The notes below the pieces were generated by a model. It did no database searches, was not told where the DNA came from, and saw only the letters and a list, made by a program, of their open reading frames with translations. Below, in pieces: positions 37,867 through 43,210 of a DNA stretch of 64,000 nt (positions are counted from its first letter, which is position 1; each line of letters begins with the position of its first letter). The stretch comes from Nitrososphaerota archaeon (GTDB lineage Archaea > Thermoproteota > Nitrososphaeria > Nitrososphaerales > Gagatemarchaeaceae): assembly GCA_027887005.1 (NCBI GenBank), contig JAPCJI010000004.1:1-64000 (forward strand). Reading direction: 5' to 3'. The position numbers and the translations under genes were made by a program.

Positions 37867-38217
37867 GTTTGCGAGCTCAGGTTCAGCCGGATTCAAATCC
37901 TTTGGGCAGGTGAAATTAGTCAGATGTGCCCGCGCCACGCAAGGGTGGGCGAGAGAAGCCCATCATTTGACGCCCGCCCTGTGGCCAAGGAAGTCATGGT
38001 CTACTACTATGCTGCTGGTCAGGGGTCTTTCAAGGCTCGGTCTGGCTGAAGAACGTCCCGGGGCCCTAGCAGGTGTTTCCACAAAGTTGGCAAGGCTGCG
38101 GGTGAACCGCGAATTGTCGCCAGGCAAGCCAAGATCATCTGATCAGTGAATTCATCAGACACCATGCTGGCTAACTTGGTGCAGTCTGCGGTCGTCTGTG
38201 GTGGGTGCGGAGGACTT
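37867..38217 (-). other. Gene-poor stretch between cyclase gene and small zinc-ribbon genes
   Basis: No convincing gene is visible in these 350 bases. A 48-codon frame beginning at an ATG near 38164 on the minus strand (MVSDEFTDQMILACLATIRG...) exists, but two frames are about equally open and third-position composition does not single one out. Confidence 0.4.
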
Positions 38218-38418
38218 TCAAACGCCTTCGAAGTTCTGCTCGTCTGGTGCCTGCATGGCGAAATGCTGGTCCAGCCCGGCTTGGTTCCGCATGCACCAGG
38301 GGCAGAGTACCTCGGCTCTGTTCATGGTTAGGTAGTATACGTTGCATCTTCGGCAACTCTTGCCAAAGGTCATTGAATCCAGGACGAGACTATGAACACT
38401 GCTCGCTTCGCTGGTCAT
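38218..38418 (-). CDS. 66-residue zinc-ribbon protein
   Basis: The short protein has two CxxC pairs, SCRRC (C22/C25) and CPWC (C39/C42), spaced 13 residues apart as in zinc ribbons. Its ATG at 38418 overlaps the TGA of the gene upstream (ATGA), the usual coupling in this genome, which argues that both are real although small. No homologue is recognised. A zinc ribbon of this kind could bind nucleic acid or RNA polymerase. It lies in an otherwise gene-poor accessory region near a mobile-element module. Confidence 0.5.
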   Translation of the reverse strand: MTSEASSVHSLVLDSMTFGKSCRRCNVYYLTMNRAEVLCPWCMRNQAGLDQHFAMQAPDEQNFEGV

Positions 38419-38639
38419 GCTCGCCCACCGGCGACGAGGAGCGATCCCATCATGGCCGAATACAACCTGTTCCCGAGCTGTTTCCTCCTTTCGATTTCTT
38501 TCTGCACCGAGCAGATGAAGCACCGCCGATCCTGCCCCCGGGCGAGTGAACTTCGCCGAACCCCAGTTAGTCCGCGCCAAAATCTAAGTTGCTCTGGGGT
38601 CAGGAAATAGGTCCTCCAGGCAGTTCTCCCGGCTCTCAC
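38415..38639 (-). CDS. Small protein with CxxC pair, coupled to zinc-ribbon gene
   Basis: A 74-residue reading from GTG 38639 contains YFLTPEQLRFWRGLTG and RRCFICSVQKEIERRKQLGN with one CxxC pair. An upstream ATG at 38756 would add 39 residues that look random, so the shorter start is preferred, though no TATA box supports it. The stop overlaps the next ATG (ATGA). The function is unknown; the paired zinc-binding products might work together. Confidence 0.42.
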   Translation of the reverse strand: MRAGRTAWRTYFLTPEQLRFWRGLTGVRRSSLARGQDRRCFICSVQKEIERRKQLGNRLYSAMMGSLLVAGGRA

Positions 38640-39536
38640 CAGGGTTCGACGGTTTCCTGGATGAGCGCTGCACTCTTCCCTTCCACGCGAAAGGCTGGTC
38701 ACTGACGTCTCGGTTTCCACCAGAAGTGCAATGGCCTGGCCTCGGGATATATCCACAATGAACGCTGGATACAGAGCAGTGGTTCATCAGAGGCCACAGG
38801 AGAACTTTGGCGAAGGCAAGTGGGATGCCTCTGCTCGAAGTCAGTGGCAGGTCTTAGTCGGTTCAAGTGGGCGCCTGGACAAGGAAGAATCTGGTTTGGA
38901 ATCCTGCGACAACGTGTACTTTCAGATTCGGGGAGAATGCCAGAATCTCCGTGGCCGTCCTTGAAGAATCCATGATGAGCCCATGTCAATTGGGGACTAT
39001 TTGCCGTCCATTTCGAAGACGGATATTTGCGAAACCTAAATGAGTTAGCGGACTGGAGGATCCGAGCGAGTCGTCGGTCGGGTTCCCACAGTAGTCTCTG
39101 AACCTTCTTCCTGGTGTCGAAGGCAGTCACAAGTCAGCACCTTCACCAGACTCCCTCCGTCACACAGCCTTGCAATCGACGCTGGCCCTAATTTGCCAGA
39201 AGGCCATCCGATGCTCCATGACCCAAAGAAAATCCGATGTCAGGAAGATGCTCACAGACTGGGAGATCGTCCACGACAGCATAGGCGTCGACGTCTTCCT
39301 TCCCCCGAAGAGGTGCAAGAACTGCGATGATTGAGACTGGAGACCCGCCCAGGTTCAGGAAGGCCTCCCACACGCCTGAAGGCTTGCTGGGGGGACGGTG
39401 CGAGACGTGTGTTTCGTTCTGGAGCGTTGGATTCTGTAACAGGTATCAGACGCCGGTGGACAGGGATAACCTGTGTGACAGCTACTCATCGATTCACTAG
39501 TTCGGGACGAGGGCCTCGTCTCGAACATCTCGAAAC
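38640..39536. other. Gene-poor accessory region, no supported gene
   Basis: Roughly 900 bases contain only short open frames of inconsistent composition on both strands. A minus-strand frame from 39130 starts plausibly (TRKKVQRLLWEPDRRLARIL) but decays into low-quality sequence, as expected of an eroded gene. No tRNA, direct repeat or integrase fragment could be identified. Confidence 0.4.
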
Positions 39537-39767
39537 TCATTCCTCAACGCGCCCACGAGCGCGAGAATTGGGAATAGGTTCTTTCTTTATCACTAATTTG
39601 GTCCCAATTCTCGCCAAGGTCAACGATTCACCTTCTTTCCACCCCAAGGACTTGACTTCCTTTGGCGGGATAATCACTGTCCATCTGAAGTATTCTTTAC
39701 CTCTTACCTCTCGGTTCCTCTGCTTCTGTAGTCGCATGACAGCAGGTGATGCTAGCCGCCCCTCCAT
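39537..39767 (-). CDS. AbrB/SpoVT-like regulator of mobile-element module
   Basis: The 76-residue protein carries the swapped-hairpin core YFRWTVIIPPKEVKSLGWKE followed by GESLTLARIGTKLVIKK, the AbrB-type DNA-binding fold common in archaea and their plasmids and viruses. ATG 39767 lies 26 bp from the shared TATA box; an internal ATG at 39737 (MRLQKQRNREV) may be the conserved start. It is transcribed away from the primase gene, and two identical palindromes lie between them, so it is the likely repressor of both directions. Confidence 0.75.
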   Translation of the reverse strand: MEGRLASPAVMRLQKQRNREVRGKEYFRWTVIIPPKEVKSLGWKEGESLTLARIGTKLVIKKEPIPNSRARGRVEE

Positions 39768-39774
39768 AAGCGTT

Positions 39775-39809
39775 TTAGATATCTAAGGCTTTATTAGTTA
39801 GATATCTAA
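39775..39809. promoter_or_regulatory. Divergent promoter: one TATA box flanked by two 12-bp palindromes
   Basis: The perfect palindrome TTAGATATCTAA occurs at 39775-39786 and 39798-39809 (the second extends to 14 bp, 39797-39810), centres 23 bp apart. Between them GCTTTATTAG (about 39788-39797) can be a TATA box in both directions: its centre is 29 bp from primase ATG 39822 and 26 bp from regulator ATG 39767. Binding to the palindromes would cover both transcription starts. Confidence 0.75.
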
Positions 39810-39821
39810 CGGCAACAGCAA

Positions 39822-40694
39822 ATGATTGAGAGGATACTCGACTTCTTCCCAGAGAGAAGACCAAAGTTCCTGAACAGCGCGTCCTTAGGTGAAAAGAGGA
39901 CTCTGACGATCGAATCAGCTGCAGGCAGATTGATCAGGGACCAGATGAAAGTCGTAGTGACTTTCAAGGAGATTGAGAACGGGTTGATACTGAACCGGGT
40001 GAACGCCGAAGTCTTGAGCACGATCTTTGGCCCCAACCTTGCTGACCTCGTCGGGAAGAGGATCTCGCTCGAAGTCGTGCCTGTGGAGTACAAGGGGCAG
40101 ATGACGAAGGGAATACGCGTTGCCAAGGCACCGCCGGGAACTCCCGGCGCCATGGATTTCGCATTCGCTTCCTTCCCGGAGTGGGAGGCACATGTCGACC
40201 GATACATTGAATGGGGATGGACGCTAATTCCGATAAGGCCCTACTCGAAGGGGCCCTTCAGCAAGGAGCACTGGCTGCAAGACAGGTTCAGTAGGGATTC
40301 GATCCTTCAGAACATACTGCACCAAGGTAACTTGGGTGTCGTCTGCGGGCCGAGTAAGCTTGTGGTCCTTGACATCGACGTTGACTCAACACCTGATGTC
40401 TTGGACCCATCCGCCAGTTTGACGCAACGAACCGCAAGAGGATGGCAAATCTACTTGACCAAACCCTTTGACGACCCGCTATTCCAAAAACTGAGGGAGA
40501 TTATCCCCGGGCTCGACCTTCCCCGAGTCGGAGGAGCCTATTCCGTCGCCCCACTGAGCGCGACTTGTTCATTCGATCATGGGAAGAATCACCGGTGTCG
40601 AGTCCATGATCTACACGTCCGAAGATGGGTCGGTCGAGGTCTAGAGGGAGAGGCGATCCCTTTCACGGAATACGCGAGGCTCCTCTTGAAATGA
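39822..40694 (+). CDS. Replication protein: phage ssDNA-binding-like domain fused to PrimPol domain
   Basis: The 290-residue protein has two parts. Residues about 10-105 (NRVNAEVLSTIFG..., LVGKRISLEVVPVEYKGQMT, KGIRV) resemble a small phage/plasmid protein often linked to single-strand binding. Residues about 120-285 fit the bifunctional primase/polymerase N-terminal family: GWTLIPI, NLGVVCG, the metal site VVLDIDVD and GGAYSVAPLS. The usual histidine of the next motif (GxHxYF) is replaced in ARGWQIYL, so catalysis may be altered. ATG 39822 is leaderless relative to the TATA box. It is coupled to the next gene by ATGA. Confidence 0.75.
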   Translation: MIERILDFFPERRPKFLNSASLGEKRTLTIESAAGRLIRDQMKVVVTFKEIENGLILNRVNAEVLSTIFGPNLADLVGKRISLEVVPVEYKGQMTKGIRVAKAPPGTPGAMDFAFASFPEWEAHVDRYIEWGWTLIPIRPYSKGPFSKEHWLQDRFSRDSILQNILHQGNLGVVCGPSKLVVLDIDVDSTPDVLDPSASLTQRTARGWQIYLTKPFDDPLFQKLREIIPGLDLPRVGGAYSVAPLSATCSFDHGKNHRCRVHDLHVRRWVGRGLEGEAIPFTEYARLLLK

Positions 40695-41290
40695 GGGTCA
40701 CAGAGACATCCAACACTCTCTTTGATGAGGATCTAACACGAGTGCTTCAGGCAGCCCGTCGTTCCATGCTGCGATGGTTTCGGTGGAATACGGAGGAGTT
40801 GGAAGCAGAACATCGTGACTTAGAGACAGGACAACAATCTCCGTTCCTGGAGGATTTCGAGATGTATTACAGAAGCAAGATTGAGAGAAACACATTTTCG
40901 CTTCAGGAGGTCATCCAGAAAATTGAGAATGCAATATGGGTTCCGGGGGAAATCAGGCGACATATGGGAAAACACATCGCATTGGTGCCCCCAACCGCCG
41001 AAGAGCTCAAACGCTTCGAAGAGCGCGAGATTGAGAGGGAACTCGATCGCCTCCATAGAGTAGCTCAACAGCAGAACGAAGCAATGATCGAGTTTACCAG
41101 AATGCTCGATTGGTTTGAGAGAAGGCGGAATGCAAGACGCAGTCGCCTGTCCTACCTTGAGGAAGTGAAGATTGGGAGAACCCGCTATTACTTCGACCGG
41201 AGGAGGAGGCGAAAGATCAGTCTCAAAGAGTATCGAAGACGCGTCAGAATCAGCAAGGCCATGCTGGCGAGGAACAGGGTGGACTTGTAG
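40691..41290 (+). CDS. Highly charged coiled-coil protein of the element
   Basis: The 199-residue protein starts at ATG 40691, overlapping the primase stop. Its central part (LKRFEEREIERELDRLHRVA and on) is predicted coiled coil, and the C-terminal third is very basic (YYFDRRRRRKISLKEYRRRV). No family is recognised. Its place between a primase and an ATPase suggests a replication accessory or DNA-binding role, which is inference from position and charge only. Confidence 0.65.
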   Translation: MRVTETSNTLFDEDLTRVLQAARRSMLRWFRWNTEELEAEHRDLETGQQSPFLEDFEMYYRSKIERNTFSLQEVIQKIENAIWVPGEIRRHMGKHIALVPPTAEELKRFEEREIERELDRLHRVAQQQNEAMIEFTRMLDWFERRRNARRSRLSYLEEVKIGRTRYYFDRRRRRKISLKEYRRRVRISKAMLARNRVDL

Positions 41291-41297
41291 AAATGGC

Positions 41298-42077
41298 TTG
41301 CCAACGAACGATCCAATTCGAGATTACCTCGGACTTTACGCCAAACGTGAAAGTGGGTTTATCGAACATCTACTCATAACCTGTTTTTCTTCCTATTCGC
41401 CTAATCCTCTCAATTTGGGCGTTATGGCTCCTTCCAGTGAAGGTAAAACCTACGTTATCGACCTGGTCGCTTCGCTCTTTTCAAACGTCGCGAAGTTCCT
41501 AGGCGCCAGCTCCAAGTCTTTCTTCTTTGATGAGGGCCTAGAAATCAACCTGGAGACGCGTGAAGAAATCCAGCCCCGCCTGGATCGACTCAATCAGAGG
41601 CTTGAGGAGCTCAAAGGGGAGAGGTCACAGGAGGGGCTGACTGAAAAGCGCAGGATTAGGGCAGAGATTGGGCAGCTGAGGCGCAATTCGGCAACCAAGA
41701 TAAGCCTCCATGGCAGGATACTCGTCTTTCTCGACTCACCTGATCCCGGCCTCTGGAACTCGCTCAAGCCCCTCCTCAGTCACGATTCGTATGAGAGCAT
41801 CTACCAGACAGTGAATCGAGGCGTGGGCGGCATCAAGACCAAGAAAGTTCTCCTAGTCGGGTGGCCCGCCTGTATCTTCGCCTCGGCTAGAAATGAAGAC
41901 CACTGGGAGGTGTGGCCAGAGATTCAAAGCCGGTTCATCATAGTCAGCCCCAGTATGGACCCTGTGAAATACAAGCAGGCAAATGAGTTGACCGCACAGT
42001 TACTTGGTCTTCCGAGCTTCGCACTTAGAACACGCTTTCCCCGACGAAATGAGAAAGGCGGCCGAGGACGAGGTTAG
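41298..42077 (+). CDS. Replicative helicase-like ATPase, N-terminal part (frame ends at apparent frameshift)
   Basis: From TTG 41298 the frame encodes 259 residues. It has a Walker A-like PSSEGKTY near residues 41-48, Walker B RILVFLDSPD near 144-153 and a later strand KKVLLVGWPACIFASARNED, which fits phage or plasmid AAA+/SF3-like helicases. The last about 17 residues (TRFPRRNEKGGRGRG) look out of frame: the +1 frame of the same bases continues with family-like sequence. An upstream extension inside the previous gene lacks conserved sequence and was removed. Either a programmed +1 shift, a recent mutation or an assembly error is present near 42027. Confidence 0.65.
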   Translation: MPTNDPIRDYLGLYAKRESGFIEHLLITCFSSYSPNPLNLGVMAPSSEGKTYVIDLVASLFSNVAKFLGASSKSFFFDEGLEINLETREEIQPRLDRLNQRLEELKGERSQEGLTEKRRIRAEIGQLRRNSATKISLHGRILVFLDSPDPGLWNSLKPLLSHDSYESIYQTVNRGVGGIKTKKVLLVGWPACIFASARNEDHWEVWPEIQSRFIIVSPSMDPVKYKQANELTAQLLGLPSFALRTRFPRRNEKGGRGRG

Positions 42078-42873
42078 TAGGACGAGACAAGCGATGGAAA
42101 AGGTCGCTCTTCTGGGCCAGGTCGAAGGGAAAGGCTCTAGGCACGACAATTTCGTCTTCAATCCATTCTACAAGTGGGTCGCTGATCTATTCCCAGCGGA
42201 GACTGGAGTGAGAATGAGACAGTTCAGATACCTGATGAACTACGCCAACATCCTGACCATGATGAACGCAGATAGGAGGGCTAGGATAATCATCCGCGGA
42301 CAGGCAAGAGCTCTGATAACCCATTATGAAGACATTGACACAGCTGCGAGGCTGATCCTATCAGAGATAGCTGCACCCGTGCCGAGATTCAAGGTAGACT
42401 TCTACCGGAAATACGTGGTCCCCTGCTTCGAAGGGAACATAACCATCAATGCAAAACTATCTATGAAAACAGGGACGGAATTGAAGTTCGAAGGGGAAGA
42501 GCCAGTTACTGTAAGGCAGATACAGGAGTACTGCAAAGACAAGGGCAAGAATGTGGGGAGGTCGTGGCTGATCAAGACGATTCTCGAGCCCTTGGAAGAC
42601 GCGGGTTACCTGGAAGTCGGGACTGACCAAGTAGACAAGAGGAGGAACGTCTACAAGCCCCTTCATGGAGCTCAGAATTCTGAGATATTCATGGAATCCC
42701 GGTATCCTGACTATGGACAGGTGAGAGAGAGCCTAGAATCATTCCAGAAAGAATTTCAGAACACGGACCAAGAAATGGCATTCATACTTGCGGATGGAAC
42801 TTTGGTTGATGATCTTCAGAAAATTGTGGATGCTCTAATGAAATCGTACCCTTCCTTCAGAAACAATTGCTGA
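42004..42873 (+). CDS. Replicative helicase-like ATPase, C-terminal part (+1 frame) with winged helix
   Basis: This 289-codon frame continues the ATPase after the shift (EHAFPDEMRKAAEDEVSRTR). It contains a helical region DLFPAETGVRMRQFRYLMNY and a winged-helix-like C-terminal domain (VTVRQIQEYCKDKGKNVGRS ... LEPLEDAGYLEVG), as at the end of MCM-type and many plasmid helicases. If translated separately it could start at TTG 42004 or ATG 42049; joined to the upstream part, the protein would be about 525 residues. It is the last gene before the tRNA. Confidence 0.6.
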   Translation: MVFRASHLEHAFPDEMRKAAEDEVSRTRQAMEKVALLGQVEGKGSRHDNFVFNPFYKWVADLFPAETGVRMRQFRYLMNYANILTMMNADRRARIIIRGQARALITHYEDIDTAARLILSEIAAPVPRFKVDFYRKYVVPCFEGNITINAKLSMKTGTELKFEGEEPVTVRQIQEYCKDKGKNVGRSWLIKTILEPLEDAGYLEVGTDQVDKRRNVYKPLHGAQNSEIFMESRYPDYGQVRESLESFQKEFQNTDQEMAFILADGTLVDDLQKIVDALMKSYPSFRNNC

Positions 42874-43028: not shown

Positions 43029-43073
43029 GATAGGATTCAATTTCTCCAACGCGCGTCCCTATGTGCAGCGAGG

Positions 43074-43161
43074 TGCCGCGGGCCGGATTTGAGCCGGCGA
43101 CAACCCGGTCTTCAGCCGGGTGCTCTCCTTAACCCAATGTGTCAGGCTGAGCTACCGCGGC
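43074..43161 (-). tRNA. tRNA-Phe(GAA) with a 14-nt insertion in the D-loop
   Basis: Read on the minus strand, the acceptor stem GCCGCGG/CCGCGGC, the anticodon arm CCCGG-CTGAAGA-CCGGG (anticodon GAA), the T arm GCCGG-CTCAAAT-CCGGC and discriminator A are all perfect. The D-stem GCTC/GAGC is intact, but the loop holds about 14 extra bases (43129-43142, minus-strand ACACATTGGGTTAA). Without them the loop reads AGCCTGGGA, the standard archaeal form. A non-canonical archaeal intron is the best explanation. No CCA is encoded. Confidence 0.92.
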
Positions 43162-43210
43162 ACCGAGACCCGCGGACAACGGTTCTCGCTTAAGCCTTTC
43201 GAAGGATTGG

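Follow-up and report, generated by a model that had tools for sequence, protein, structure and literature searches.

The window, a stretch of 64,000 nucleotides, contains a gene for a small AbrB-like regulator and, divergent from it, a Prim-Pol replication gene, separated by a short intergenic region in which positions 39775-39809 read TTAGATATCTAA-GGCTTTATTAG-TTAGATATCTAA on the + strand, namely two 12-bp palindromes around an 11-bp spacer (Table 1). A sequence-only reading of this DNA had described two identical palindromes on either side of a symmetrical TATA-like element correctly spaced for both start codons. Both palindromes are indeed identical and lie exactly where that reading placed them, and the 23 bp that it gave between them is the distance that we measure from start to start. 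The spacer is AT-rich, but its symmetry is only loose. Measured from its centre (39792), the ATG of Prim-Pol (39822) is 29.5 bp away and the AbrB start adopted here (39737) 54.5 bp away, or 25 bp if one takes the upstream ATG at 39767 that the sequence-only reading had used; these distances are compatible with a single shared TATA region. Allowing for at most one mismatch, the window contains two matches to TTAGATATCTAA, against 0.02 expected, and no shuffled sequence contained two. The whole genome (1.6 Mb, 26 contigs) has no exact copy beyond the window pair, and the rest of it contains a single site with one mismatch.

Table 1. Features of the locus, with positions in the window.
Feature	Position	Strand	Remarks
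AbrB/MazE-like swapped-hairpin regulator, 66 aa from MRLQKQ	39537..39737	-	ORF extendable to 39767 (76 aa)
Palindrome O1, TTAGATATCTAA	39775..39786	.	Proposed AbrB operator, AbrB-proximal; site class kept in relatives
Spacer GGCTTTATTAG (reverse CTAATAAAGCC)	39787..39797	.	Proposed TATA region of both divergent promoters; compare the TATATAAA-like spacers of relatives
Palindrome O2, TTAGATATCTAA	39798..39809	.	Proposed AbrB operator, Prim-Pol-proximal; site class kept in relatives
Prim-Pol gene, 290 aa	39822..40694	+	PF09250, E 1.7e-14; phrog DNA primase match; extra N-terminal region of ~125 aa
ORF overlapping the Prim-Pol stop codon, apparently in the same operon	40691..41290	+	No family match
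ORF with P-loop-like APSSEGKT	41172..42077	+	Motif read from sequence; no family match; true start probably at ~41.3 kb
ORF in another frame, overlapping the P-loop ORF	42004..42873	+	Possible continuation after a frameshift

The regulator had been taken to have 76 residues. This length is not supported by its relatives, which start at MRLQKQ or MKLQKQ and lack the ten additional N-terminal residues of the longer ORF; because they begin at this methionine, we adopted the corresponding start, and the window protein probably has 66 residues instead. By contrast, its AbrB-like identity holds. The window protein matches PF04014 weakly (E 0.0027), below the curated cut-off, while relatives score 27.4 and 33 bits, above the cut-off of 24.7, and a sequence search of solved structures returned a weak Mop-like match alone. 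The AlphaFold model, computed as a single chain with 23 aligned relatives as input (mean pLDDT 84.6), predicts strands at residues 3-11 and 14-21, a helix at 25-30, and strands at 39-44 and 47-52, that is, two beta hairpins joined by a helix (EE-H-EE), the fold of the AbrB/MazE/SpoVT superfamily. Foldseek top matches of this model are MazE, the AbrB N-domain, SpoVT, VapB, C56 (pSSVi), and C68 (pSSVx), with E-values of 0.04 and above and probabilities of 0.98-1.0 for the best ones. Such modest E-values are expected when the query is short and represents only one chain of a swapped dimer, and the matches are mutually consistent despite them. Taking together the above-cut-off relatives, the model, and the fold matches, the window regulator is predicted to be an AbrB-like swapped-hairpin protein. 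The PF04014 MazE and doc_partner profiles are the top sequence matches of its family and, with MazE and VapB also among the fold matches, the protein might be viewed as the antitoxin of a MazEF/VapBC-type pair and the palindromes as a conventional toxin-antitoxin operator. We consider this highly improbable: the ORF list of the window and Pfam scans of the listed ORFs reveal no plausible toxin-like ORF after the AbrB gene and, in its relatives, the downstream ORFs vary where listed and the conserved neighbor is instead a divergent transposase.

On the right-hand side, the Pfam match identifies the replication gene of the sequence-only reading as a Prim-Pol. The ~105-125 N-terminal residues of this protein (39822-40190) form a separate region that matches phrog_21613, a family of unknown function (E 4.8e-6). 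Judging from its P-loop-like motif, the ORF at 41172..42077 encodes a probable ATPase/helicase part of the replication module, and the overlapping ORFs between 41172 and 42873 look like one such gene split by a frameshift, or like a case of programmed frameshifting. The G+C content of the Prim-Pol module is below that of its surroundings. Searches of 200 related genomes, viral contigs, and plasmids returned no close relative of this Prim-Pol, the genomes giving just one weak N-terminal match, so that the association of AbrB with Prim-Pol is a single example. We also looked for insertion sequence ends around the locus and found no credible pair of terminal inverted repeats with an 8-bp duplication; other IS240-type transposase genes or fragments are present elsewhere in this genome.

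Several additional observations concern the flanks of the element. The ~1.6 kb from a cyclase-like gene to the AbrB gene (37900-39500) contain no convincing ORF and are perhaps a decayed part of the element. On the other side, the element adjoins a tRNA-Phe(GAA)-like gene (43072-43166, - strand), which we read by eye and which neither ARAGORN, with and without introns, nor Rfam called. Its D-arm region has an insertion of ~17 nt, which may be an unusually placed tRNA intron, and relatives conserve the gene to both sides of a variable stretch. We considered integration at this tRNA gene and set it aside, as the genome has no second partial copy at E<=0.001, a threshold that a very short att would escape.

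Relatives of the AbrB protein occur in 25 of 201 related genomes by protein search and in 63 of 400 genomes of the order by profile search; none was found in viral contigs and phages. The four named loci coding for close relatives are ascribed to Nitrososphaerales, Nitrososphaerota/Thaumarchaeota, and Candidatus Gagatemarchaeum stordalenia, and the window genome falls within their order. Upstream of most close relatives, in Nitrososphaerales and in some other families of the phylum, there are at least two TTAG-N4-CTAA palindromes, typically 24 bp apart, with a TATA-like element between them. Equivalent pairs thus stand at the same position in most close relatives; related elements without palindromes here were one of the outcomes that the sequence-only reading had named in advance as evidence against it, and this check did not refute it. 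We sought the best palindrome pair in the 130 bp upstream of each AbrB relative (51 regions); 20 of them reached p<=0.01, with 24 bp as the commonest spacing, compared with none of 150 control regions upstream of other genes, and a pair score of at least 20 was attained by 19 of the 51 versus 2 of the 150 (Fisher 3.6e-11). The exact pattern of two TTAGRNNYCTAA separated by 8-13 bp occurs at 10 places in the 400 genomes, and at 3 places when the pattern is reversed as a control. Nine of these 10 places adjoin an AbrB gene that had been found independently by protein; the tenth (G041:C11) lacks an adjoining AbrB gene and is counted as the one exception. Once the rule was fixed, we collected loci from further families of the phylum, and similar sites were present there too, four at L161 and two each at L160 and L162. 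Sites were not detected at L082, at the remnants L084 and L085, or at many distant members. In the window's own genome, the window pair is the only operator pair, so that the switch appears private to this locus.

The search for paired palindromes beside AbrB genes that had been proposed from the sequence was successful in the genomes, but not in the viral contigs, whose single TTAGATATCTAA pair has no AbrB gene. This pair (L036, 2301-2344) lies just after a phage capsid-like gene with its two copies 32 bp apart, and we set it aside as unrelated to the AbrB switch. A match to the degenerate pattern (L155) was likewise discarded, as it sits in a coding tandem repeat. The arrangement had also been called unusual; it is indeed rare away from AbrB genes but, far from being a one-off, it is a conserved cassette in relatives. 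The palindromes and the neighboring genes might in principle be functionally unconnected, by chance or as a relic, as the element is small, lacks a recognizable integrase, and may be frameshifted in part. Nevertheless, the 0.02 sites expected by chance, the strong AbrB linkage over many genomes, and both the palindrome-pair and the operator-pair controls speak against chance and make this explanation extremely improbable; what it could still accommodate is a relic in this genome alone. From the sequence comparisons, the window palindromes are very probably operators of the adjacent AbrB-like protein.

The palindrome sequence varies among AbrB loci but matches inside one locus. The centre is GATATC in the window, L074, and L079; GATACC/GGTATC in L067 (five sites) and L086; GGTACC in L068, L069, L080, and L081; GGTGCC/GGCACC in L070, L072, L073, and L075; GGCGCC in L076; and GGGGCC in L099-L101 and L108. 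Distant AbrB members have other palindromes, ATGTACAT in L083 and ATGGCACCAT- or ATGGTATCAT-like ones in L091, L097, and L098. At L166 and L167, an AbrB-like gene diverges from a LAGLIDADG-like gene, with a AGGAATTC...GAATTCCT inverted repeat between them. Using hand-transcribed sites, we measured a mean within-locus likeness of 5.33 of the 6 centre bases versus 4.53 after permutation, a value reached by 0 of 20000 permutations and by 1 of 20000 when permuting inside taxonomic groups. The same transcribed sites vary with residue 18 of the protein: all 7 loci with arginine there (FRW/HRW) contain GA half-sites, and 12 of the 13 with lysine have GG half-sites only (R vs K, Fisher 1e-4). The loci are kin by descent and hence non-independent, so that the p-values of both co-variation tests are optimistic to an uncertain extent. 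The case of L086, which belongs to the Nitrososphaerales family f8 and yet combines HRW with GGTATC, indicates that the link between operator and residue tracks the protein and not the taxon.

The gene divergent from AbrB at most transposon loci codes for a protein of 337-395 aa that combines a DDE_Tnp_IS240 domain with a SWIM zinc finger. Transposase and AbrB are enclosed together in elements at eight loci, mostly with IS6-like ends, and six of the eight show an 8-bp target duplication. Inverted ends starting with GGYTCTGT enclose both genes at L067, L069, L070, L075, and L081, and a further three loci (L068, L072, and L073) came from a scan for matched ends flanked by 8-bp target duplications. 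The duplications are confirmed at L069 (CTAAAACA), L075 (TTAAATTT), and L081 (GAAAATAA); L068 has ends GGTGCTGTACAGTTTGAGGGACAT on both sides and the duplication TCTTTTAC, L073 has GATTTTGTTTAA... with a target duplication, and L072 has GGTACTGGTAAG... with long inverted ends, 5.1 kb, and a target duplication, while L067 and L070 have inverted ends alone, without duplication. The perfect ends of L072 (G122), ~5.1 kb apart, contain nested matches and possibly delimit a compound element. L068, L069, L070, L073, L075, and L081 are IS6-like elements of 2.7-3.4 kb with ORFs beyond transposase and AbrB, including, in L069, a 270-aa protein that by eye resembles a proteasome-type hydrolase. Since archaeal members have been argued not to belong in IS6/IS26 and their placement there is disputed (PMC6807381), we only use the label "IS6-like".

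Other AbrB genes have a gene for an FKBP-type protein (L160) or, 163 bp off, a DP2 gene (L079) as neighbor. A replication gene is under the AbrB cassette in the window only, where Prim-Pol occupies the divergent position that usually belongs to a transposase in relatives. This distribution bears on the possibility that the palindromes are origin iterons bound by the replication initiator of the Prim-Pol element and not by AbrB. Short repeats are common in plasmid origins, and the palindromes lie directly upstream of a replication gene. However, no Prim-Pol adjoins the equivalent paired sites of relatives, where the divergent gene is a transposase, an FKBP gene, or another one and AbrB is the constant partner; in addition, the sites are only two and tied to promoter geometry. 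Iterons are accordingly a very unlikely explanation.

This geometry is shared by thirteen palindrome-TATA-palindrome sandwiches, in which the A+T fraction is 0.80 in the spacer versus 0.68 in the outer flanks and most spacers contain a TATATAAA-like sequence. The spacer centre lies 26 bp from the divergent transposase ATG at L068, L069, L076, and L081, and mostly 48-69 bp from the start of AbrB (54.5 in the window, 26 in L067). Such distances would be expected if the spacer drove both transcripts, the divergent one being leaderless and that of AbrB having a short leader. In the mechanism that we favor, TBP/TFB would be occluded and both genes thereby repressed. An AbrB-like dimer would occupy each TTAG-N4-CTAA site and, with both sites filled, TBP/TFB would be kept off the TATA region and the flanking BRE positions. 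The inner half-sites directly adjoin the TATA region at the expected BRE positions, so that occupancy by AbrB and by TBP/TFB should be mutually exclusive. AbrB and the divergent Prim-Pol would then be silenced jointly, which would amount to negative autoregulation combined with copy or mobility control. The proposed shared TATA region may mainly serve one direction, given that polarity is set by the BRE.

Alternatively, AbrB might activate transcription, bend DNA architecturally, or control just one promoter. AvtR, a regulator of an archaeal virus, is an activator at low concentration and a repressor at high concentration (PMC5569661). Three of the close relatives (L071, L077, L079), which have no divergent transposase, have a shifted geometry, with the pair 21-22 bp apart and the TATA-like sequence extending into the second palindrome, which would suit a role of this kind. 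An activator site is expected upstream of the BRE, while sites on both sides of the TATA region and abutting it are best placed for occlusion. These alternatives to a joint repression therefore seem unlikely.

The closest published case is C68 of pSSVx (PDB 3o27), which we liken to the window regulator via the model match and not by direct sequence comparison. Both are small archaeal AbrB-like swapped-hairpin proteins of mobile elements with two intergenic sites, and candidate regulator sites kept in relatives are indeed present between the AbrB and Prim-Pol genes of the window. C68 binds two sites between its own gene and the divergent orf60, which codes for a CopG homologue, one of them overlapping the BRE; its recognition motif is TATG(C/GG)TTTTC and its transcriptional effect is unknown (PMC5569661). 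The window differs in its operator, a 12-bp palindrome with its own spacing rule and setting, and the C68 motif is absent, by reading, from the window intergenic sequence. MazE, AbrB, and SpoVT resemble the regulator in its predicted fold and through weak profile matches, but in the window we found no toxin partner, the palindromes flank a TATA region, and the setting is that of archaeal transposons and replicons. Stf76/ORF80 of Sulfolobus plasmids, of ~80 aa, is also a plasmid regulator with two sites upstream of its own gene (PMC4027180), but it is a winged-helix protein with a different site sequence (TTAAN7TTAA) and sites 60 bp apart.

The elements of the relatives resemble the IS6 family in their GGNNCTGT-like ends, IS240-type DDE transposase, and 8-bp target duplications. 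Published members are of ~800 bp, and only ISDsp3 has been reported with a passenger gene (2021 review, PMC7986276), whereas those found here reach 2.7-3.4 kb and carry AbrB and a SWIM zinc finger; the window element lacks such ends. With its Prim-Pol replication gene in a small element, the window is reminiscent of small thaumarchaeal cryptic integrated elements such as CalSub-E1 (PMC6563490), although the paper describing them mentions neither AbrB nor palindromes, and its catalogue of thaumarchaeal insertion sequences makes no mention of AbrB. Searches of the open literature returned no account of thaumarchaeal insertion sequences that carry AbrB genes.

The principle of the window switch is ordinary; what is new is the conserved operator-TATA-operator rule, the diversification of the operator, and the AbrB passengers in IS6-like transposons. 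The comparisons suggest a cassette conserved across the phylum that usually governs IS240-type transposases and that, in the window, would put a replication gene under its control. More tentatively, the AbrB gene and its operator-TATA-operator promoter might form a portable repressor cassette that transposons and one replicon or more have in common across the phylum and that has diversified into many private repressor/operator pairs (GATATC, GGTACC, GGYRCC, GGCGCC, GGGGCC, and others), each forming an immunity or copy-control group. If so, a resident element would silence an incoming one with the same operator, like phage repressors do. Mobile-element control in Thaumarchaeota is nearly unexplored, and paired TTAG-N4-CTAA sites ~24 bp apart around a TATA region provide a short operator rule for a family of small repressors, which predicts which protein residue reads which base. 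The IS6-like transposons are unusually large and carry their own candidate repressor, as compared with the one passenger-gene member of the 2021 review. Regulatory cassettes may thus move between transposons and replicons, in either direction, and their repressor/operator pairs are potential orthogonal switches for archaeal genetics.
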